A stretch of 64,000 nucleotides of DNA, taken from contig JANWWC010000004.1 of assembly GCA_025056215.1 (NCBI GenBank), positions 124,001-188,000 of the forward strand. The letters run 5' to 3'. Under the pieces are notes generated by a model. That model was not told the origin of the DNA and did no database searches. It worked only from the letters and a program-made list of their open reading frames with translations. Numbering within the stretch: the first letter of the stretch is position 1; each line of letters opens with the position of its first letter. Shown here piece after piece: positions 2,210-58,560 of the stretch. The position numbers and the translations under genes were made by a program. Source of the DNA: Cytophagales bacterium (lineage in GTDB: Bacteria; Bacteroidota; Bacteroidia; Cytophagales; Flammeovirgaceae).

Positions 2210-3049
2210 ATGAAAAAACTAAAAATAATAGCGCTCTTGCTGGCAGGATTGCCGGCATGGGCGCAAACCTCGCAACCTCAAACAGGGTTGGATTTATCGC
2301 CAGAAGAGCAAACTCTCATCGTTTATTACGCCGTCGGAGGTGCTTTTTTACTGATATTATTAGCGGCTTCTTTGTTAGTGATGGCAACAGCTATCAGTCT
2401 CATTATTAGACTTAATAGAGAAATAAATCCTCAACCTCAAGAAGAACAAAAACTTTCTTGGTGGGAGCGCTTTAATCAGCTTAAACCCTTGTCTAAAGAA
2501 AAGGAATTATTACTAGAGGAGGAGTTTGATGGTATTTTGGAATTAAATAATCCGATTCCTTTTTGGTTTAACGTGCTGTTTTATGGTACTATCTTCATGA
2601 GTATTGTGTATTTGCTTGTATATCATGTTTGGGATCTAGCGCCTTTACAAGCGCAAGAATATGAGCAAGAAGTAAAGTTAGCTGAAATCCAAAGAGAAGA
2701 ATATCTTAAGAAATTTGCTGCTAGTATTGACGAAACCAACGTAGAGCCAACTACCGAAGCAAATGATATAGTGAGCGGTAAGCAAATCTACATGACTTAT
2801 TGCGCTGCTTGCCATGGACAATTAGGAGAAGGAAAAGTAGGTCCTAATCTGACTGATAAATTTTGGTTACACGGAGGAGATATCAAAAGCCTTTTCAAAA
2901 CAATTAAGTATGGTGTTCCAGAAAAAGGTATGATTTCTTGGCAAAAACAACTTAACCCACTTCAAATTAGAAATGTTGCTAGTTATATCTTAACCTTACA
3001 AGGGACTAATCCACCAAATGCTAAAGCACCTGAAGGAACTGAAATGTAA
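2210..3049 (+). CDS. ccoP: cbb3 oxidase subunit III, mono-haem CcoP
   Basis: Membrane-anchored c-type cytochrome that feeds electrons to the CcoNO core. The 279-residue product opens with a hydrophobic stretch ending AWAQ (possible signal peptide), a long membrane helix at about residues 40-66, and a second helix in the FixP N-terminal region (NNPIPFWFNVLFYGTIF). A single cytochrome c domain follows, with CAACH at residues 198-202 and a Met-containing distal segment. Classical proteobacterial CcoP carries two haem c domains; only one is present here. A one-haem form is known in Bacteroidetes, so this is a lineage trait rather than a truncation. Confidence 0.93.
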   Translation: MKKLKIIALLLAGLPAWAQTSQPQTGLDLSPEEQTLIVYYAVGGAFLLILLAASLLVMATAISLIIRLNREINPQPQEEQKLSWWERFNQLKPLSKEKELLLEEEFDGILELNNPIPFWFNVLFYGTIFMSIVYLLVYHVWDLAPLQAQEYEQEVKLAEIQREEYLKKFAASIDETNVEPTTEANDIVSGKQIYMTYCAACHGQLGEGKVGPNLTDKFWLHGGDIKSLFKTIKYGVPEKGMISWQKQLNPLQIRNVASYILTLQGTNPPNAKAPEGTEM

Positions 3050-3122
3050 TCTGCCTTAGCCTATGGAGAAGAAGAATTTTCTCGTAGGCTTCTTTCCCTT
3101 AGAAATTAAACTTTTCATAATT

Positions 3123-4574
3123 ATGGAAACTGTTCAACAGCCTACTTTTCGTGAACAATTAGGTATTCTTGAAAAAGATGGCAAACGTCACTGGATTTAT
3201 CCTAAAAAAGTATCAGGAAAGTATTACAAATGGCGCAGCGTAGTAGCTGCCATACTTTTGCTTTTTTTGTTTGTAGCTCCCTTTGTAAAAATAAACAATT
3301 ATCCGTTAGTACTTTTGAATATCTTTGAGCGGCGTTTTGCTTTGTTAGGCTTTGTTTTTCACCCACAAGACTTGTTTTTATTTGCGCTTGCTATGATTAC
3401 TGCGGTAGTATGCATCGCTTTGTTTACAGTAGTATTAGGAAGAATCTTTTGTGGTTGGATATGCCCGCAGACAATTTTTTTAGAAATGGTATTCAGAACT
3501 ATAGAAAGGTGGATTGAAGGAGACGCTAATCAACAAAAAAAGCTTGATGAACAGCCGTGGAATTCAGAAAAAGTCATTAAAAAATCCTTGAAGCACTTAG
3601 TTTTTTTTGCTTTTTCATTCTTAGTGGCTCATACATTTTTAGCTTATTTAATAGGTATTGACCAATTGTGGACAATGTTGCGCCAAACTCCTTTGCAACA
3701 TCCGGTAGCTTTTGTTTCTCTATTGATATTTACAGGATTGTTTTATGCTGTTTTTGCACATTTGCGGGAGTTAGTTTGTATTGTTGTGTGTCCTTATGGA
3801 AGATTGCAAGGTGTTTTGTTAGATAAAAATTCTTTGGTGGTAGCATATGATTATGTGCGAGGAGAACCTCGAGGAAAAATTTTTAAATCTCAGTCTCAGC
3901 ATCGAGAAAATGTTTCAAAAGGAGATTGTATAGATTGCAAATTATGTGTTCAGGTATGTCCTACAGGAATTGATATCCGAAATGGTACACAACTCGAATG
4001 TATAAACTGCACGGCTTGTATTGATGCTTGTGACGAGGTGATGCAGAAGATAGGACGACCTACTGGTTTGATTGGTTATTATACTGCTCATCAAATCGAA
4101 GATAAAACTTTTCGAAGAGAAGATAATACGATTAAGCCTGTATTGCCGATTACCACCAGAACAATTGCTTATTTTTCTGTGCTGATTATTCTGATAGGGA
4201 TTATGACTACGCTACTCGTTACGCGTAAAGATGTTGAAATTACAGTATTGAGAATGCCTGGAACGCTTTATCAAAAACTCGATAATGGAGTAATTGCAAA
4301 TCTGTATCAGCTTGAAGTCGTAAATAAAACACCATATCCTAAAACTATTCAAGTGAAAGGAGTCGATTCTCAAGTGATAGTAGTAGGAACTGAAAACAAT
4401 TTATTGAAGCTTTCTGAGGGAGAAGTAGAGAAGTTTACAATCATGATCCAAATGCATAGTAATCAGATTAACAGCTACAAAATGAAGACTTCATTGCAAT
4501 TTTTAGAAGGAAAGCAAGTTATTTCAGAAAAAACGACTAATTTTATTGCTCCTTATAGATACAAATCGTTATGA
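3123..4574 (+). CDS. ccoG: cbb3 oxidase accessory protein CcoG (FixG/RdxA-like)
   Basis: Polyferredoxin-type membrane protein implicated in copper handling during cbb3 oxidase assembly. The product has about four to five membrane spans, a CGWICPQT motif in the NapH-like core, and two 4Fe-4S signatures (CIDCKLCVQVCP, then CINCTACIDAC). The C-terminal Ig-like region follows a helix near residue 350 and is typical of FixG. I chose the ATG at 3123 (METVQQPTFREQL, 483 aa) because family members begin shortly before FRE/FRD and GKRxWIYPKK; an in-frame ATG at 3063 would add 20 hydrophobic residues. The stop overlaps the next start (ATGA), implying translational coupling to ccoH. Confidence 0.94.
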   Translation: METVQQPTFREQLGILEKDGKRHWIYPKKVSGKYYKWRSVVAAILLLFLFVAPFVKINNYPLVLLNIFERRFALLGFVFHPQDLFLFALAMITAVVCIALFTVVLGRIFCGWICPQTIFLEMVFRTIERWIEGDANQQKKLDEQPWNSEKVIKKSLKHLVFFAFSFLVAHTFLAYLIGIDQLWTMLRQTPLQHPVAFVSLLIFTGLFYAVFAHLRELVCIVVCPYGRLQGVLLDKNSLVVAYDYVRGEPRGKIFKSQSQHRENVSKGDCIDCKLCVQVCPTGIDIRNGTQLECINCTACIDACDEVMQKIGRPTGLIGYYTAHQIEDKTFRREDNTIKPVLPITTRTIAYFSVLIILIGIMTTLLVTRKDVEITVLRMPGTLYQKLDNGVIANLYQLEVVNKTPYPKTIQVKGVDSQVIVVGTENNLLKLSEGEVEKFTIMIQMHSNQINSYKMKTSLQFLEGKQVISEKTTNFIAPYRYKSL

Positions 4575-4729
4575 AAATACCTTTCAATTGGGGAACTGGA
4601 ATTCTTATTGCAATTGTTATATTTATGATTTTTATTATCAGCTTAGGGATTTATATGATAACGCGCCCTAACGATCTGATAAAAAAAGATTATTACGAAG
4701 ACGAAATCAAACAACTACAAAAACCTTAA
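4571..4729 (+). CDS. ccoH: CcoH/FixH-like stub (52 aa)
   Basis: FixH proteins are single-span assembly factors of cbb3 oxidase. This gene overlaps the ccoG stop codon by 4 bases. The product begins MKIPFNWGTGILIAI, has one membrane helix, and then reads NDLIKKDYYEDEIKQLQ, which is the FixH signature just outside the membrane (DLV-x-KDYYExE). It then stops. Family members are usually about 140-150 residues with a periplasmic domain after this motif, so here only the anchor and the juxtamembrane signature remain. The 14 bases before the next gene cannot hold the missing domain. Confidence 0.8.
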   Translation: MKIPFNWGTGILIAIVIFMIFIISLGIYMITRPNDLIKKDYYEDEIKQLQKP

Positions 4730-4743
4730 ACATTTGTTGTCAT

Positions 4744-4956
4744 ATGAAAAAAAACATGGGTATTATTGATAGAGCAATTCGAGTCAGTATTGCATGTGTG
4801 ATTGTCGTTTTATATTTAGCAAATGTGATAAGCGGAACAATTGCGATTATAGGACTGATAATAGCGGGCATTATGTTAGCTACAAGTGTGTTGAGCTTTT
4901 GTCCTTTGTATGCTCCTTTTGGAATTTCTACTTGTAAAAAGGAAGATAATGTCTAA
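4744..4956 (+). CDS. DUF2892 family inner-membrane protein
   Basis: A 70-residue protein with a short start (MKKNMGIIDRAIR) and two hydrophobic helices around residues 12-32 and 36-52, then CPLYAPFGISTCKK. This matches DUF2892, a small family often found alone or fused to rhodanese domains (as in YgaP); its molecular role is not established. Its position 14 bases after ccoH suggests co-transcription with the cbb3 oxidase cluster. The two cysteines in the C-terminal CPLY...STC segment are typical of the family. Confidence 0.8.
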   Translation: MKKNMGIIDRAIRVSIACVIVVLYLANVISGTIAIIGLIIAGIMLATSVLSFCPLYAPFGISTCKKEDNV

Positions 4957-4960
4957 ATAA

Positions 4961-4990
4961 TTTTCAATTCTCTAAATGAGAAGATTGAAA
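4961..4990. terminator. Possible bidirectional hairpin between DUF2892 gene and nuoK
   Basis: TTTCAAT (4962-4968) pairs with ATTGAAA (4984-4990), with an inner CTC/GAG match and a short AT loop. It lies in the 3' end of nuoK, where two genes converge with only 7 bases between stops. The stem is AT-rich, so this is a weak call. Confidence 0.35.
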
Positions 4991-5266
4991 GTGCTTGTAA
5001 AATTGGATAAGAAGTGCTAAGGCTATTGAGATTTCTGCTGCTGCAACTAATAAAATAAAAAGGACAAATAAATGAGATTCTGTTTGTCCGAATTTTTTAC
5101 CAAAAGCAATGAGGTTAAGATTAGAAGCATTCAACATAAGCTCAATTCCAATGAGCATCATTATCAAATTGCGGCGTGTAATCACCAGAGTTACGCCTAT
5201 GCACATCAAAAGAGCTCCCAAGTACAGGCTTATTTGTAAATAAGAAATTCCTATCATACTAAGCAC
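4964..5266 (-). CDS. nuoK: NADH-quinone oxidoreductase subunit K (NuoK), isolated copy
   Basis: A 100-residue, three-helix subunit of the proton-pumping membrane arm of complex I. The sequence has the family features: [34 protein letters not shown] (quoted in part), with the conserved Glu in the second helix (IGIELMLN), then a third helix with an internal acidic residue ([12 protein letters not shown]). The first Met overlaps the end of clpX by 8 bases; an alternative start three codons later at 5257 (MIGISYLQ) avoids the overlap and fits the usual length. No other nuo gene is adjacent: upstream is clpX and downstream a convergent DUF2892 gene. Confidence 0.9.
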
Positions 5267-6491
5267 TTTTAAGCATCATTTTTTTCAATTGTGGGGCTTT
5301 CTCTAGTTGAGAAGCAGCATATTCTTTATCGATTACGATTTTAGAAACTGGAGGCAATTCATATTGTAAATCTAACATAATTGCTTCGCAAATGGAACGA
5401 AGTCCACGTGCACCCACTTGGAATTCTAATGCTTTTTCTACAATATAGTCTAAAGCGTCGTCAGTAAATTCGAGTTTGATGTTTTCCATCGCAAATAGTT
5501 TTTGGTATTGTTTGATAATCGCATTTTTGGGTTCTATCAAAATGCGGCGCAGAGCAGTTTTGTCTAACGGGTCTAAATGCGTAATCATAGGGAAGCGGCC
5601 GATAAGTTCAGGAATTAAGCCAAAACTTCTCAAGTCTTGAGGAGAAACGTATTGGAGGAGATTGTTTAAATCTACGGTTTCTTCTTTTTCTGTGCGGAAC
5701 CCTATAGGAGTAGTATTGAGACGAGAAGCGATTTTTTTTGTAATGCCTTCGAAAGCTCCTCCAGCGATAAACAGAATATTTTCTGTGTTAATAGCAACTA
5801 AATTTTTTTGTTCAGGATGTTTTCTACCGCCAAAGGGAGGCACATGCGCAATGGTGCCTTCCAAAAGTTTGAGAAGGGCTTGTTGTACACCCTCTCCGCC
5901 TACATCTCTTGTAATAGAAGGGTTATCTCCTTTGCGTGCAATTTTATCAATTTCGTCTATGTAAACGATGCCGCGTTCGGCTTGCTCTACGTCATAATCT
6001 GCATTTGCTAATAATCGCGTTAAGATTGTTTCGACATCCTCTCCGACATATCCTGCCTCTGTAATGACAGTAGCATCTGCGATTGCAAAGGGAACTTGCA
6101 AAATTTTGGCGAGTGTTTTGGCTAATAAGGTTTTACCAGTTCCCGTTTCGCCGACCAGAATGATGTTTGACTTTTCAATTTGGACGCCATCATCCGTTTT
6201 TTTCTGCATTAGGCGTTTGTAATGGTTGTAAACCGCTACAGAGAGGATTTTTTTAGCTTTTTCTTGTCCGATTACGTATTCATCGAGGTATTTGGCAATT
6301 TCAGTAGGTTTTACTAGATTAAAGCGCAATCCACCTGTTTTTTTGCGACTCGTATTTTTAAAATCAACCAACATCGAATGAGCCCGTTCAATGCAATTAG
6401 AGCAGATGCGCGCATTAGCGCCCGTTACCATGAGTTCTACTTGTTCTTCTGAGACTCCGCAAAACGAGCATATGTTTCCTTTTCCTTTCAT
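5259..6491 (-). CDS. clpX: ATP-dependent Clp protease ATP-binding subunit ClpX
   Basis: AAA+ unfoldase that delivers substrates to ClpP. The 410-residue product has the N-terminal C4 zinc finger (C8, C11, C30, C33), Walker A GETGTGKT at 114-121, a GYVG pore loop, Walker B with [11 protein letters not shown], sensor and arginine-finger regions, and the C-terminal small domain ([13 protein letters not shown]). Length and start are those of the family. No clpP or trigger factor gene is adjacent. Downstream it overlaps nuoK by 8 bases, so the two may share a transcript. Confidence 0.98.
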
Positions 6492-9913: not shown

Positions 9914-9970
9914 TCTTTAAAAAGCCATACTTTAATTTCAAAATACAAAATAGTATTATAAACCAAAAAT

Positions 9971-10231
9971 TCATTTGCTGTTATGGGCTAACAAGCCATC
10001 TTTTGAAGCAAAATAATAATATTGTTGGTAATTTTTAAAAAAATCCTCTTGAGTAGGAAAAGTTTCAGTCTGATAATCTATCAAAATTCTTATCCATTTT
10101 TTTTGCCATAAGTTCCAGAGAGATTCTAAAAGTTGTTTTTCAGGGATTTCAGTGCGCTCCGATAGTTCATCAAAACTAATTATAAAATACAGTTCATCTA
10201 AAATTTGGTATTCTTGTTCATTCATTTTCAA
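9971..10231 (-). CDS. Conserved hypothetical protein downstream of gatC (86 aa)
   Basis: Small acidic, aromatic-rich cytosolic protein (MKMNEQEYQILDELYF, then SLWNLWQKKWIRI, ending SKDGLLAHNSK). The first 45 residues (EYQILDELYFIISFDELSERTEI...LLESLW) look like a helical, possibly winged-helix-like, fold, but I cannot assign a family with confidence. Its start overlaps the gatC stop by 14 bases, which suggests translational coupling and co-expression with gatC. Confidence 0.7.
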   Translation of the reverse strand: MKMNEQEYQILDELYFIISFDELSERTEIPEKQLLESLWNLWQKKWIRILIDYQTETFPTQEDFFKNYQQYYYFASKDGLLAHNSK

Positions 10232-10511
10232 TTACTTTAGGAACTCTAAAATAATTAGAATCTTTTCGAGGAGCATTGAAAAGAGCTTTTTCGTGTGGCA
10301 ACGGTTCTTCTACTACGTCTTCCCGAAGAACATTTACTTCATGGCTCATATGAGTAAGGGGAAGTACATTTGTAGTATCAATCTTGTTGAGCATTTGTAC
10401 CCATTCCAGAATTTCATTGAGGCTTTTCAACATTTTTTCTTCATCTGCCTCATTAAAGTAAAGCCTTGAAAGATGTGCTATTTTTTCGATAGTATTCTTA
10501 TCAATGTTCAT
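10218..10511 (-). CDS. gatC: Asp-tRNA(Asn)/Glu-tRNA(Gln) amidotransferase subunit C
   Basis: Small GatCAB subunit that stabilises GatA for transamidation of misacylated tRNA. The 97-residue product has the family pattern: IAHLSRLYFNEADEEKM, LNEILEWVQMLNKIDT, then THMSHEVNVLREDVVEEP and a C-terminal FRVPKVIE. gatA and gatB are not adjacent, which is usual in Bacteroidetes. A TATGTTTG element (- strand, 10547-10540) lies 29 bases upstream of the ATG and matches the Bacteroidetes -7 consensus TAnnTTTG, but I see no well-spaced -33 box. Confidence 0.93.
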   Translation of the reverse strand: MNIDKNTIEKIAHLSRLYFNEADEEKMLKSLNEILEWVQMLNKIDTTNVLPLTHMSHEVNVLREDVVEEPLPHEKALFNAPRKDSNYFRVPKVIENE

Positions 10512-10589
10512 TATCTCTTCGCATTGAATTTTTTATGTACAAACATACAAAAACAATTCTATTTGTATGGAGTTCAAAAGTTTTTTCTT

Positions 10590-53305: not shown

Positions 53306-54229
53306 ATGATGAGAAAGTTTTTAAGTGTACTCGCGGGATTTTTGTTTTGGAACTTGCAATTAGTTGCTCAGCCATACTTTTTCAAAGTGTTAGGTATAAA
53401 AGGTCTCTGTAAAGCAGATAATCAACTTTTAAAGGTAGGAACTAATATCAGACCGGACCAGACTATTTTCGTCCCAGTCAACGGATATTTAGGATTAGCT
53501 CACTACTCCGGAAAAACACTTGAACTTAAAAATCCAGGAACATATCGAGCCAAAGACCTTGAATCCAAGATAAAATCTAATTATACGAGTGACATGCAGC
53601 GCTATTTTGATATTGTTTTAAATGAGCTAATTTCTGAATCTAATATTTTCGAACGGCGCGAACGTTTACGAAAAGCTTCCTCTTTTTCAGGAAAAGGCGC
53701 TGTTACACGGCAAGCTACAGGAAATGCACTCAGTTTTGTTTTACCTTCTACAAGTAAGATATATGAAGATACTATTTTGATTCGGTGGTATGTAGTGGAC
53801 TCTTCTTTTTTTACAGGAAAGAAACCCGTTTATCGTCTCAAAATTATGAACATGCTTCAAGAGCTTTTATATGAAACACAAACTTCTTCTCATGAAATCG
53901 TAATTAGTTTCCAAGAACCTTCTTTACAAAAAGAGACTCATACTTATTGGTACGAAGTAGAATGGATTGAAAACCCTGATATTTCAACAGATCTTCATTC
54001 TTTTAATAAGATTTCTCCCCAAGAAGAGAAGAAAATAAAGAAAGAAATCGGAATTCTTCCTACCGATGGAGAAGCTATTGGGCAACTTATCTTAGCGCGT
54101 TACCTGGAGGATAAAGGGTTATTAGCAAATGCGTTGTTTGTCTATAAGCGCTTATTGGAGCAGTATCCTATTGAATCTTATCAAGAAATTTATCAGGATT
54201 TCTTAGTACGAAATCATATGTTAGATTAA
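53306..54229 (+). CDS. Secreted protein of unknown function (307 aa)
   Basis: Signal peptide at the N-terminus (MMRKFLSVLAGFLFWNLQLVAQ). The following beta-rich part, FFKVLGIKGLCKADNQLLKVG and YLGLAHYSGKTLELKNPG, resembles the FecR-like beta domain of Bacteroidetes periplasmic proteins. The C-terminal 70 residues are helical (ARYLEDKGLLANALFVYKRLLEQYP), like a TPR. I cannot name a function. Its 3' end overlaps the convergent SpoIIE gene by 4 bases. Confidence 0.7.
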   Translation: MMRKFLSVLAGFLFWNLQLVAQPYFFKVLGIKGLCKADNQLLKVGTNIRPDQTIFVPVNGYLGLAHYSGKTLELKNPGTYRAKDLESKIKSNYTSDMQRYFDIVLNELISESNIFERRERLRKASSFSGKGAVTRQATGNALSFVLPSTSKIYEDTILIRWYVVDSSFFTGKKPVYRLKIMNMLQELLYETQTSSHEIVISFQEPSLQKETHTYWYEVEWIENPDISTDLHSFNKISPQEEKKIKKEIGILPTDGEAIGQLILARYLEDKGLLANALFVYKRLLEQYPIESYQEIYQDFLVRNHMLD

Positions 54230-55539
54230 AACTGAGTAGGAACCTTGAAGCCTACAATAAGAATATCGTCAGTTTGATGCTGATTCCCTTTCCATTCTTG
54301 AAGTGTTTGTGAAAGTATTTTTTCTTGTTCATCGAAATCTTTTTGATAGATTTCCGAAAGAAGCGTTATCAATCTTCGAAGCATAAAACGGTTTTTGTTA
54401 TATCGGTCGAATTGGTGTGCATATCCATCGGAAAACATATAAAATACTTGTTCGGGGTTTGTAGCAATTATGTGCTTAGTGAAAGAGATGGTTTTATGTT
54501 TTTTTCCTCCAATTGAGATGCGGTCGGCAGGAATTTTTGTACAAGTATTTCTCTCAAAGATAAACAAAGGATTTCGCGCAGATGCTACTTCAAGCACTTG
54601 GTTTGAAATGTCGATTGTGCAAATGGTAATATCCATTCCTTCTGACTGTCCTGTATGCTGTTGGTTAAGATATTGAACTACTTTTTTTTCTAAAGAATTA
54701 AGAATTAGTTCTGGGCTTTCGATATTCTCACATTCAATAATCGAGTGAAGTGCGTTATGAGCTAAAATGCTAATAAAAGCGCCAGGCACGCCGTGTCCTG
54801 TACAGTCTATTGTGGCAAAAAAGATTTTTTCTTTGTGGAGATGAAAGAAATAAAAGTCGCCGCTTACAATATCTCTCGGGCGGAAAAATATTAACGCATC
54901 AGGTAATACTTGGCGTATTTTTTCAATAGGGACAAAAAGAGATTTTTGAATGGTTTCAGCGTAATAAATACTATCAAGAATTATTTGTTTTTGTTCAGAA
55001 AGAATTCTCTCCTTTTCTTGAAGTATAAGATAAGCTTGATTCAAGCGCTGAAATTGTCTTCTGAGTTCTAGTTGAGCCACTACTTGTTTAGCGAGTACCC
55101 GGAGAGCTTCTTTTTGAGCTAAGGTAAGTTTTTTAGGTTTAGAGTCTACTACGCAGAGTGTTCCTATATTGAAACTCTCTGGAGTTTTCAAGGGTGCACC
55201 TGCATAAAATCGCACGCCTATTCCGCCTGTTACTTCTGGATTATCAAAAAAACGAAAATCTTGGAGCGCATCTTCGATTTCAAAAATCTCGTCTTGCAAA
55301 ATGGCATGAGCACAAAAGGAAATGTCTCGTGATGTTTCGCAGGCTTGAATGCCGATTTTCGCTTTAAACCATTGTCGTTCTTTATCCACAAAGGTGATTA
55401 AAGAGATAGGAACTTCACAAATTTGAGAAGCTAACGACACAATTTCATCGTAATCTTGCTCAGATGGGGTATCTAATATGTTGTAAGAGAGCAAATTGTT
55501 AAGTCGTTCAAGTTCATTATCAGGAATTGCTGCTTTCAT
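54226..55539 (-). CDS. GAF-SpoIIE (PP2C-type) serine phosphatase
   Basis: A signal-transduction protein of 437 residues: an N-terminal GAF domain (about 15-165), a coiled-coil linker (about 165-215), and a SpoIIE-type PP2C phosphatase (about 230-430) with FRPRDIVSGDFYFF, FATIDCTGHGVPGAFIS and YMFSDGYAHQFDR. Such enzymes dephosphorylate anti-sigma-antagonist proteins in response to signals sensed by the GAF domain. I chose the ATG at 55539 (MKAAIPDNELERLNN); the frame runs upstream without conservation. A decayed second copy lies directly upstream at 55625-56200. Confidence 0.9.
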   Translation of the reverse strand: MKAAIPDNELERLNNLLSYNILDTPSEQDYDEIVSLASQICEVPISLITFVDKERQWFKAKIGIQACETSRDISFCAHAILQDEIFEIEDALQDFRFFDNPEVTGGIGVRFYAGAPLKTPESFNIGTLCVVDSKPKKLTLAQKEALRVLAKQVVAQLELRRQFQRLNQAYLILQEKERILSEQKQIILDSIYYAETIQKSLFVPIEKIRQVLPDALIFFRPRDIVSGDFYFFHLHKEKIFFATIDCTGHGVPGAFISILAHNALHSIIECENIESPELILNSLEKKVVQYLNQQHTGQSEGMDITICTIDISNQVLEVASARNPLFIFERNTCTKIPADRISIGGKKHKTISFTKHIIATNPEQVFYMFSDGYAHQFDRYNKNRFMLRRLITLLSEIYQKDFDEQEKILSQTLQEWKGNQHQTDDILIVGFKVPTQF

Positions 55540-55624
55540 AGAAAAGTAATTTTTAAAAATATAACAAAGTGTCGAAGTTACGATTAGTATATTTTTAAAT
55601 TTTGCAAGGAATTTTGAATCCAAT

Positions 55625-56200
55625 CATTGAAAACATCGTCGGTTTGTCGGTTGTTTCCTTTCCAGTTGTAAAGGTTTACAAGAGTATTTTTTTCTTGTTC
55701 TTCGAACCTTTTTGATAAATTTGGAGAGTGTTATTTGCATGAAACGATTTTGTTAGAGTGATTATAAACCCATTGGAATGCAAAAAAATTAAAGATTTTG
55801 TAAAAACGATTTGTTTTCTTTTCTTATATACGGGTATATACGGGCGGAGGTAGCTTTTGTAAAAAGGTATCGAAATAAGAAGAAAAGTATGTATTGTAGT
55901 TGTCTCAAGAACTCGACGTGGGGCAAATCAATCACACAAAGATGTAATACTTCTAATTGTCTTGTTTGATGCTGATTTAAGTATTGAATCGACTTGGTTT
56001 CCAAGGATTGTAGAATTAGTTCTAAGCTCGTAATTTTTTCAAAATCGAAACGATTCGTAGAATCTATGCGATAAAAGTAATAAGAGTTCTTGCTTGAAGC
56101 GCCAGTCTAATACGATCTATGCAGCAAAGAATGTCTTCTCACTGTTTCGATAAGAACTTTTGCACAAAAGTAAATTCTTGATTTGAGAACAAAGGATGCA
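55625..56200 (-). pseudogene. Decayed tandem copy of the GAF-SpoIIE phosphatase gene
   Basis: Reading the - strand in three frames gives pieces colinear with the intact neighbour. In order: IYFCAK-VLIETVRR (neighbour IYYAETIQKSLFVPIEKIRQ), an in-frame stop, SYYFYRID (DFYFFHLH), SLELILQSLETKSIQYLNQHQT (SPELILNSLEKKVVQYLNQQHT, quoted in part), NRFM, then after a frameshift FEEQEK...NWKGNNRQTDD (FDEQEKILSQTLQEWKGNQHQTDD, quoted in part). The phosphatase core with DCTGHGVPGAF is missing, consistent with an internal deletion. Fragments of the GAF-to-linker region (IAKQAEKIFQIEQR) may extend it to about 56400. This cannot encode a working enzyme. Confidence 0.85.
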
Positions 56201-56586
56201 AAGTGTTTTTCTTGCTGAAAGTCTTCTATCTCTAAATATCATCTTACGAAGGTAATTTTGTTCCGAAAAATAATTATCGAAAGCTGTTTCTGAAAGCTAT
56301 GACTCTTTGTTCAATTTGAAAAATTTTTTCTGCTTGTTTGGCAATAAAAAAGGTGTGCAAATCGAAACTTGTGAAGACGACAAGCGAGCGCTGCAAATTC
56401 TTCATAAAATTACCTCAGAAAATACCCCTTGAACTCATAAGGAGTGAGGTTCCTGTAAGGATTGTTGTTAGTTACGTTTGCATGTTTCGCAGTAGTTAGT
56501 TTAGTTATGATCAGGAAGAAAATGATTGCAAGCTTGTCTTACAAGGTTTTTAACTGTTTAAGTTTTTGCGGTTTATAAAAAAGTTT
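56201..56586. other. Pseudogene tail and TonB-receptor upstream region
   Basis: No intact gene. The part up to about 56400 may be the most decayed 5' portion of the SpoIIE pseudogene. A TACGTTTG element (56473-56480) fits the -7 consensus upstream of the receptor gene, but I see no correctly spaced -33 box. I did not find a recognisable cobalamin-riboswitch core. Confidence 0.4.
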
Positions 56587-58560
56587 ATGAGCATCATCAT
56601 TACTATTAGTTTTACTTTCATTTTTCTTGCAATCTGCTTTGAAAACGTTTTGGGGCAAAAAGATACGCTTTTGCAAGAAATTCATGTGGTGGATACGCGT
56701 TTGAATAATGATTCTTTTAGTGGTTTTAAGCAACAATTACTTGACGCTCAGGAGCTAAAGTATTTAAATGTTTGTAGCCTTTCAGATGCTCTTCGGTCTT
56801 TTTCAGGAGTGTTTATAAGAGATTACGGCGGAGTTGGAGGATTAAAAACAGTTTCTATAAGAAGTTTAGGTGCTGAGCACACTGCAATCCTTCATGACGG
56901 AGTTCAACAAATAGAGGCTTCTACGGGTCAAATTGATGTAGGTATGCTTTCTACTCATCATCTCAGTAGCATTCGCCTTTCTCAAGGAGTTTCTGTGCGA
57001 GAACTTTTGCCTGCTCGCACTTATCTCTCTGCTAATGTGATCCATCTGAATAGCTATTTTGCTTCTGATACCTCTGTAGCTCAAAAGCAATATTTAATAA
57101 AACTTCAAGGAGGAAATTTTGGACTTTTAGAAAAATACGGAAATGTGTCTTTCCCTCTTTCTCAAAATTTGAAAATGAACTATCTTTCTTGGGCAAGATA
57201 TGCACACGGAGAATATCCTTATCATTATCAGAATGGAATATATACTACTAGAGCTCGAAGACAAAACTCTGAAGTTGAACAATTGCGCCAAGAAATTCGT
57301 ACTTATTTGCGTTTTACACCTGTTTTTCGTTGGCATTCATGGGTATACGGCTCAGTGTCTAAAAGACAATTACCTGGTGCAGTAATCGATTATATTCAGC
57401 ACTCGCAACAAGCATTAGTACAACAAGAATACGTTTGGCAAAATACTTTTCATTCTGATTTGTCGAAATGGCAATTTCGCTTTGATATCAAAACAGCGTT
57501 GCAACATTTGCGTTATACAGACCCTTTATTTCTCAATAGTAGTGGGGGGATTGATGACCGCTTTTCTCAAATGGAGTCTTATTTTTCAGTAGCAGCGCGT
57601 CATCAATGGAACTTTTTTACTTTGGGAATGGCTATAGACAATAGTTTTCAAAATTTACAATCTTCTCGTTATATGGCGCAGCAGCCTTCTAGAAATGCAG
57701 TTCATGCTGCTGGAGGAATTTATTATAGGCGAAATCGAATTTCAGCAGAACTCAATGGGGTCGGAATAATTGTCAAAGAACGCAATCCTGTGGAACTGCT
57801 TCCCTTGAGAAATCACGTTTTGCCCAGTAGTTCGATTTGTTTTCAGACTAATACAGGCAACTACAAAGCGAGTATACGAAAAACAATGCGGCTTCCTACT
57901 TTCAACGATATGTATTACGTGCGCTTAGGAAATCTGACGCTTCGCCCTGAAATTGCCTTACAATATCAGTTGGCTACCTCTCAAACAAGATATTGTGGTA
58001 CTATTTTAAGAAAATTGAATTGGGATGTAGCTTTTTTTTATATCCTTACACAAGATAAAATAATAGCTGTTCCGACTCAAAATTTGTTTATATGGTCTGT
58101 GCGCAACGTAGGAAGAGTACAAACTACAGGTGCAGAGTTGGGCATAGAACAAGAATTTTTTCCTATAGGCAAATATATTCCGATATGGGTAATTCACTAT
58201 ACTTTCCAGCGCGCTATTGATATTACAGAATCTTCTTCTCCTACTTTTAGGCATCAAATAGCTTATACGCCTCAGCATATTTTTCAGCAGAGTATTCGTT
58301 TGCGCTCAAATTCTATACAATTTCATTATACAGCAAGTTTTACGGGAGTTCGTTACGCGTTGGGTGAAAATATTCCATCGAATCGGTTAGAAGAATTTTG
58401 GTTGCATGATGTTGGCTTACATTATAAAATATATCGTGCAAAATATAAGGTTGAAATGAACATCTCAGTTAATAACTTACTTTCAGCGCGTTATGCTATC
58501 ATAAGAAGTTTTCCAATGCCAGAGCGCAATGGTCAAGTTGGTTGTCTAATAAGTTTTTAA
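56587..58560 (+). CDS. TonB-dependent outer-membrane receptor
   Basis: A 657-residue protein with a signal peptide (MSIIITISFTFIFLAICFENVLGQ, quoted in part), then the plug domain (LLQEIHVVDTRL, LSDALRSFSGVFIRDYGGVGG, SIRSLGAEHTAILHDGVQ) and a beta-barrel rich in alternating aromatic strands to the end. It lacks the N-terminal carboxypeptidase-like domain of SusC proteins, so it is more like BtuB/FepA transporters. The cargo cannot be told. The ATG at 56587 was chosen over an upstream TTG. The EamA transporter gene follows after 37 bases. Confidence 0.9.
   Translation: MSIIITISFTFIFLAICFENVLGQKDTLLQEIHVVDTRLNNDSFSGFKQQLLDAQELKYLNVCSLSDALRSFSGVFIRDYGGVGGLKTVSIRSLGAEHTAILHDGVQQIEASTGQIDVGMLSTHHLSSIRLSQGVSVRELLPARTYLSANVIHLNSYFASDTSVAQKQYLIKLQGGNFGLLEKYGNVSFPLSQNLKMNYLSWARYAHGEYPYHYQNGIYTTRARRQNSEVEQLRQEIRTYLRFTPVFRWHSWVYGSVSKRQLPGAVIDYIQHSQQALVQQEYVWQNTFHSDLSKWQFRFDIKTALQHLRYTDPLFLNSSGGIDDRFSQMESYFSVAARHQWNFFTLGMAIDNSFQNLQSSRYMAQQPSRNAVHAAGGIYYRRNRISAELNGVGIIVKERNPVELLPLRNHVLPSSSICFQTNTGNYKASIRKTMRLPTFNDMYYVRLGNLTLRPEIALQYQLATSQTRYCGTILRKLNWDVAFFYILTQDKIIAVPTQNLFIWSVRNVGRVQTTGAELGIEQEFFPIGKYIPIWVIHYTFQRAIDITESSSPTFRHQIAYTPQHIFQQSIRLRSNSIQFHYTASFTGVRYALGENIPSNRLEEFWLHDVGLHYKIYRAKYKVEMNISVNNLLSARYAIIRSFPMPERNGQVGCLISF

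Follow-up and report, generated by a model that had tools for sequence, protein, structure and literature searches.

A frame-broken remnant, probably a decayed tandem duplicate, upstream of an intact GAF-SpoIIE phosphatase gene in a Cytophagales bacterium

The 64,000-nucleotide stretch of DNA analyzed here (the window) contains an intact GAF-SpoIIE phosphatase gene and, directly upstream of it on the same strand, the remnant of a homologous gene whose reading frame has been broken many times (Table 1). Judged from sequence comparisons, the upstream stretch is very probably a decayed tandem duplicate, in which the downstream copy would have remained intact and the upstream one would have been inactivated and then have drifted unconstrained. 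Gene duplication and decay of this kind are ordinary in bacteria, and the remnant is an ordinary pseudogene; it documents a single loss from a genome with many SpoIIE phosphatases and has little importance beyond annotation.

Fusions of GAF to SpoIIE-like phosphatases have already been described, for example sce6543 of Sorangium cellulosum (PMC2887360). Both domains of such proteins (PF01590 and PF07228) are found in the intact neighbor, whereas the remnant is without the GAF half and most of the conserved motifs. The nearest solved sequences to the intact gene were PDB 6k4e, a putative serine phosphatase, for its phosphatase part (E 7e-29) and PDB 4zmu, a diguanylate cyclase, for its GAF part (E 1e-33); both are only distant homologs and are uninformative on the decay.

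Table 1. Positions of the remnant, the intact gene, and their parts in the window
Feature	Position	Strand	Evidence and remarks
Remnant (pseudogene) of a GAF-SpoIIE phosphatase gene	55597..56401 (secure core 55607-56374)	-	Matches residues ~147-437 of the intact neighbor; frameshift-tolerant and frame-blind DNA alignments
Wrecked catalytic core, counterpart of IDCTGHGVPGAFISILAHN	56063..56120	-	In the alignments, retains the first Asp but not GHG or PGAF; flanked by frameshifts
Longest part of the remnant that is still open (FEKITSLELILQSLETKSIQYLNQHQTRQLEVLH...)	55837..56055	-	Found without frame correction; match of 55% across 40 aa by blastp, to the intact neighbor only
Conserved C-terminal piece FEEQEKNTLVNLYNWKGNNRQTDDVF	55629..55706	-	Alignments
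Intact GAF-SpoIIE phosphatase gene	54226..55539	-	437 aa; ATG 55539-55537, TAA 54228-54226; ORF list, coding sequence and stop checked, Pfam
GAF sensor domain of the intact gene	55072..55452	-	PF01590, E 4.6e-11; remnant counterpart not found
SpoIIE (PP2C-type) phosphatase domain of the intact gene	54241..54831	-	PF07228, E 3.6e-17

Detection and extent of the remnant

The initial annotation had described a degenerate, colinear copy between positions 55625 and 56200, on the same strand as the intact gene and directly upstream of it, and had proposed a translated search with the intact 437-residue protein as a check. When this protein was compared to the genome in a six-frame search, the region was recovered as an independent, weak match (C12:179837-180046, which is window 55837-56046, minus strand, 43% identity, E 5e-5). 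Because the region is frame broken, the protein was then aligned to the DNA by dynamic programming with frameshifts allowed. The resulting alignment was colinear, joined residues 155-434 to window positions 56374-55607 with 108 of 254 identical, and scored 254, compared to 43 for the opposite strand and to 200 dinucleotide shuffles whose scores averaged 41 and did not exceed 59. A frame-blind alignment of the DNA, which borrows nothing from the protein, was also significant (868 versus a shuffle maximum of 488); it was over-gapped, with 83 indels, and therefore served for significance only and not for rates. These results demonstrate that the copy described upstream of the intact gene is real.

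The extent of the match depended on the frameshift penalty. With a looser penalty the remnant grew to 56401-55597 and residues 147-437, and with a stricter one the match shrank to the C-terminal part, 56040-55607. The interval first proposed was thus too short, and the remnant reaches from approximately 56374 (or 56401) to 55597. In the alignment, its 3' end falls at the same point as the end of the intact gene, and it stops approximately 57 bases before the ATG of that gene. On its other side, a divergent TonB-receptor gene starts near 56590, approximately 200 bases beyond the remnant. The longest ORF-poor gap that the window contains, which measures 1,050 bases versus a median of 74 for gaps between ORFs of at least 120 aa, is mostly taken up by the remnant. 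The G+C content of the remnant is 0.31-0.33, versus 0.35-0.39 in the intact gene.

Damage to the reading frame and the conserved motifs

The reading frame of the remnant is destroyed. Its frameshifts, of which a single one had been noted initially, are many, although their count varies with the penalty chosen (17 under the standard setting and 31 under the loosest one); 26 codons are also missing, and the longest homologous stretch that is still open is approximately 73 codons. Sequencing error was rejected as the cause, since approximately 40% of the aligned bases differ and indels are numerous as well.

The GDFY, DCTGHG, SDG, and TDD motifs have a metal or catalytic role in PP2C enzymes. The remnant was compared to the motifs common to eight intact homologs, and three of the four were found to be ruined: GDFY is lost, little beyond the first Asp is left of DCTGHGVPGAF, and SDG has become SNG, with the C-terminal TDD alone kept unchanged. 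The initial annotation had reported the DCTGHGVPGAF core as lacking, which is correct in effect, but the core has been scrambled and not excised, and its surroundings can still be aligned. With these motifs in this state, the remnant would not be expected to encode a working SpoIIE phosphatase enzyme. For the GAF half (residues 1 to approximately 147), no counterpart was detected in the flank up to 56700; the score of 46 was set against a shuffle mean of 37 and was equaled by 8 of 100 shuffles, and a GAF remnant upstream of 56375 was rejected because its score lay within those of the shuffles.

The alignments give no apparent sign of selection on the protein of the remnant. At the residues that are invariant in the eight intact homologs, the remnant keeps 47-51%, versus 41-44% at variable residues, the values depending on the alignment; invariant residues are thus kept hardly more often than variable ones, as drift without protein-level constraint predicts. 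Because these residues are invariant in the intact homologs, a change at any of them most likely arose in the branch of the remnant itself. At codon positions 1 and 2 of the invariant residues the remnant differs at 0.30-0.43, and third-position differences overall amount to approximately 0.59 (156 of 265). By Jukes-Cantor arithmetic, 0.37 in one unconstrained branch predicts approximately 0.56 for two, which is close to the third-position value observed. This comparison of rates suggests that the copy has been dead for most of its existence, a rough argument in that the protein-guided alignment pulls codon positions 1 and 2 towards agreement.

Source of the remnant and alternative explanations

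Approximately 60 SpoIIE homologs, including paralogs from the same genome and proteins from relatives, were scored against the remnant in the same way. The adjacent gene scored 254 and the next best, L059, scored 104; full-length orthologs with the same domain layout from other genera scored 41-87. The longest open stretch, taken without correction, matches the adjacent gene alone, and a single C-terminal piece of 21 residues fits L059 slightly better, a lead that we regard as the noise of so short a match. With the neighbor by far the closest homolog, the remnant is most readily taken to be a lineage-specific duplicate of it. The two are adjacent, colinear, and on one strand. The tandem duplication and subsequent decay that had been proposed initially is borne out by the wide margin of this best match, the conserved order and strand, and the common end point.

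The tandem duplication would have placed two copies of an ancestral GAF-SpoIIE gene head to tail. The downstream copy would have remained intact, and the upstream copy would have been inactivated, probably early, after which it would have drifted without constraint and gathered frameshifts, small deletions, and AT-rich changes; at present it would be without function. Its 5' part, the GAF half, would have been either removed or never copied. We consider it possible, if somewhat doubtful, that the duplication was confined to the 3' two thirds of the gene, in which case the upstream piece would have been dead from the start and would never have lost a GAF half. The absence of any GAF trace beyond shuffle level upstream is in keeping with such a partial duplication, as is the unconstrained appearance of the conserved residues throughout, but the 5' half could equally well have been deleted later. 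The missing GAF half could also be accounted for if the remnant came from a different, GAF-less SpoIIE paralog, such as one of the 298-aa L059 type, that lay beside the GAF-SpoIIE gene by chance and was no duplicate of it. The remnant starts approximately where stand-alone SpoIIE proteins start, and L059 is both the second-best match and the slightly better one on the 21-residue piece; the whole-length scores and the longest open stretch, however, favor the neighbor so strongly that this origin is very unlikely.

We also considered whether the remnant is retained because its DNA or RNA has a role, either as a leader or promoter for the intact gene or as an untranslated regulatory RNA. Its place directly upstream of the intact gene, so close to the ATG, would fit such a function, as would its persistence despite heavy decay. 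However, no Rfam match was found in the window, and upstream of the intact gene there was neither a Bacteroidota-type -33/-7 match of at least 9/10 nor an excess of sigma-70-like sites (8 versus 8.2 in shuffles), results that lend no support to the suggestion in the initial annotation that the promoter of the intact gene lies in the remnant. The other suggestion made there, that the intact copy may have diverged in its sensing role, likewise gains no support from these comparisons. A function of the DNA or RNA of the remnant is very unlikely, and it is slightly less likely still that a dead duplicate has turned into a regulatory leader or control region of the intact copy and persists for that reason. 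In Salmonella, highly degraded pseudogenes that persist are reported to be few and to derive from genes that are weakly expressed and have low connectivity (Kuo and Ochman 2010, PMC2916853). Bacterial pseudogenes likewise have reading frames broken by frameshifts and deletions; by comparison to them, the remnant differs in that its source gene adjoins it.

Relatives, other tandem pairs, and further observations

Of the 390 genomes of the order that were searched, 6, the genome under study included, contain relatives of the intact gene with an E value of 1e-80 or better; the comparison genomes were all from other genera. Two of the 6, the distantly related G113 and G062, each carry two intact GAF-SpoIIE copies head to tail on one strand. 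These pairs lie at G113:C74:22968-25906 (L152) and G062:C33:33408-36332 (L153), in genomes of 9.3-9.8 Mb with approximately 170 first-look SpoIIE candidates each. The copies are 74-76% identical within a genome, 90-95% identical to their counterparts in the other genome, and approximately 41% identical to the intact gene studied here. Since counterparts are more alike than the copies within a genome, the duplication in G113 and G062 preceded their split, and since the intact gene is only approximately 41% identical to either copy and the remnant is closest to its own neighbor, the two duplications were separate events. The arrangement is thus head to tail at both loci, but in G113 and G062 both copies are intact. 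GAF-SpoIIE genes would accordingly have been tandemly duplicated at least twice independently, with both copies kept once and one lost once. No further decayed copies were found beside the G113 and G062 pairs or beside the single copy in G033.

Among these relatives, all of other genera, the flanking genes formed no conserved neighborhood, and an intact second copy in the corresponding place was not seen. The flanking gene at 53306-54229 has distant relatives in most genomes. For the TonB receptor a single comparable match was obtained; it lies in G033, but not on the contig that carries the phosphatase of that genome. A scan of contigs for relatives returned mostly GAF-domain relatives from other groups and no close relative.

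The genome under study has 35 SpoIIE-domain (PF07228) matches in 2.83 Mb, approximately 12 per Mb. There are 11 in a 3.0-Mb genome of the same family (G006) and 59-63 or more in genomes of 4-5 Mb in the same order (G031, G018, and G037). When the intact protein was used as the query against its own genome, 35 matches were obtained, among them the gene itself, one GAF-only gene, and the remnant. A stand-alone GAF protein of 235 aa (L062:2219-2926, minus strand, on G000:C12) shares 56% identity with the GAF region of the intact gene, linker included. Its gene lies directly downstream of the minus-strand gene at 2998-5628, which encodes a protein of 876 aa that carries a SpoIIE domain at its C terminus, so that sensor and phosphatase are separate neighbors there. 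The next two longest gaps in the window, at 4575-5258 and 9914-10589, contain small ORFs that resemble real genes; we take these to be a 100-aa NuoK-like protein (4964-5266, minus strand), a 70-aa membrane protein (4744-4956, plus strand), and a 97-aa GatC-like protein (10218-10511, minus strand).
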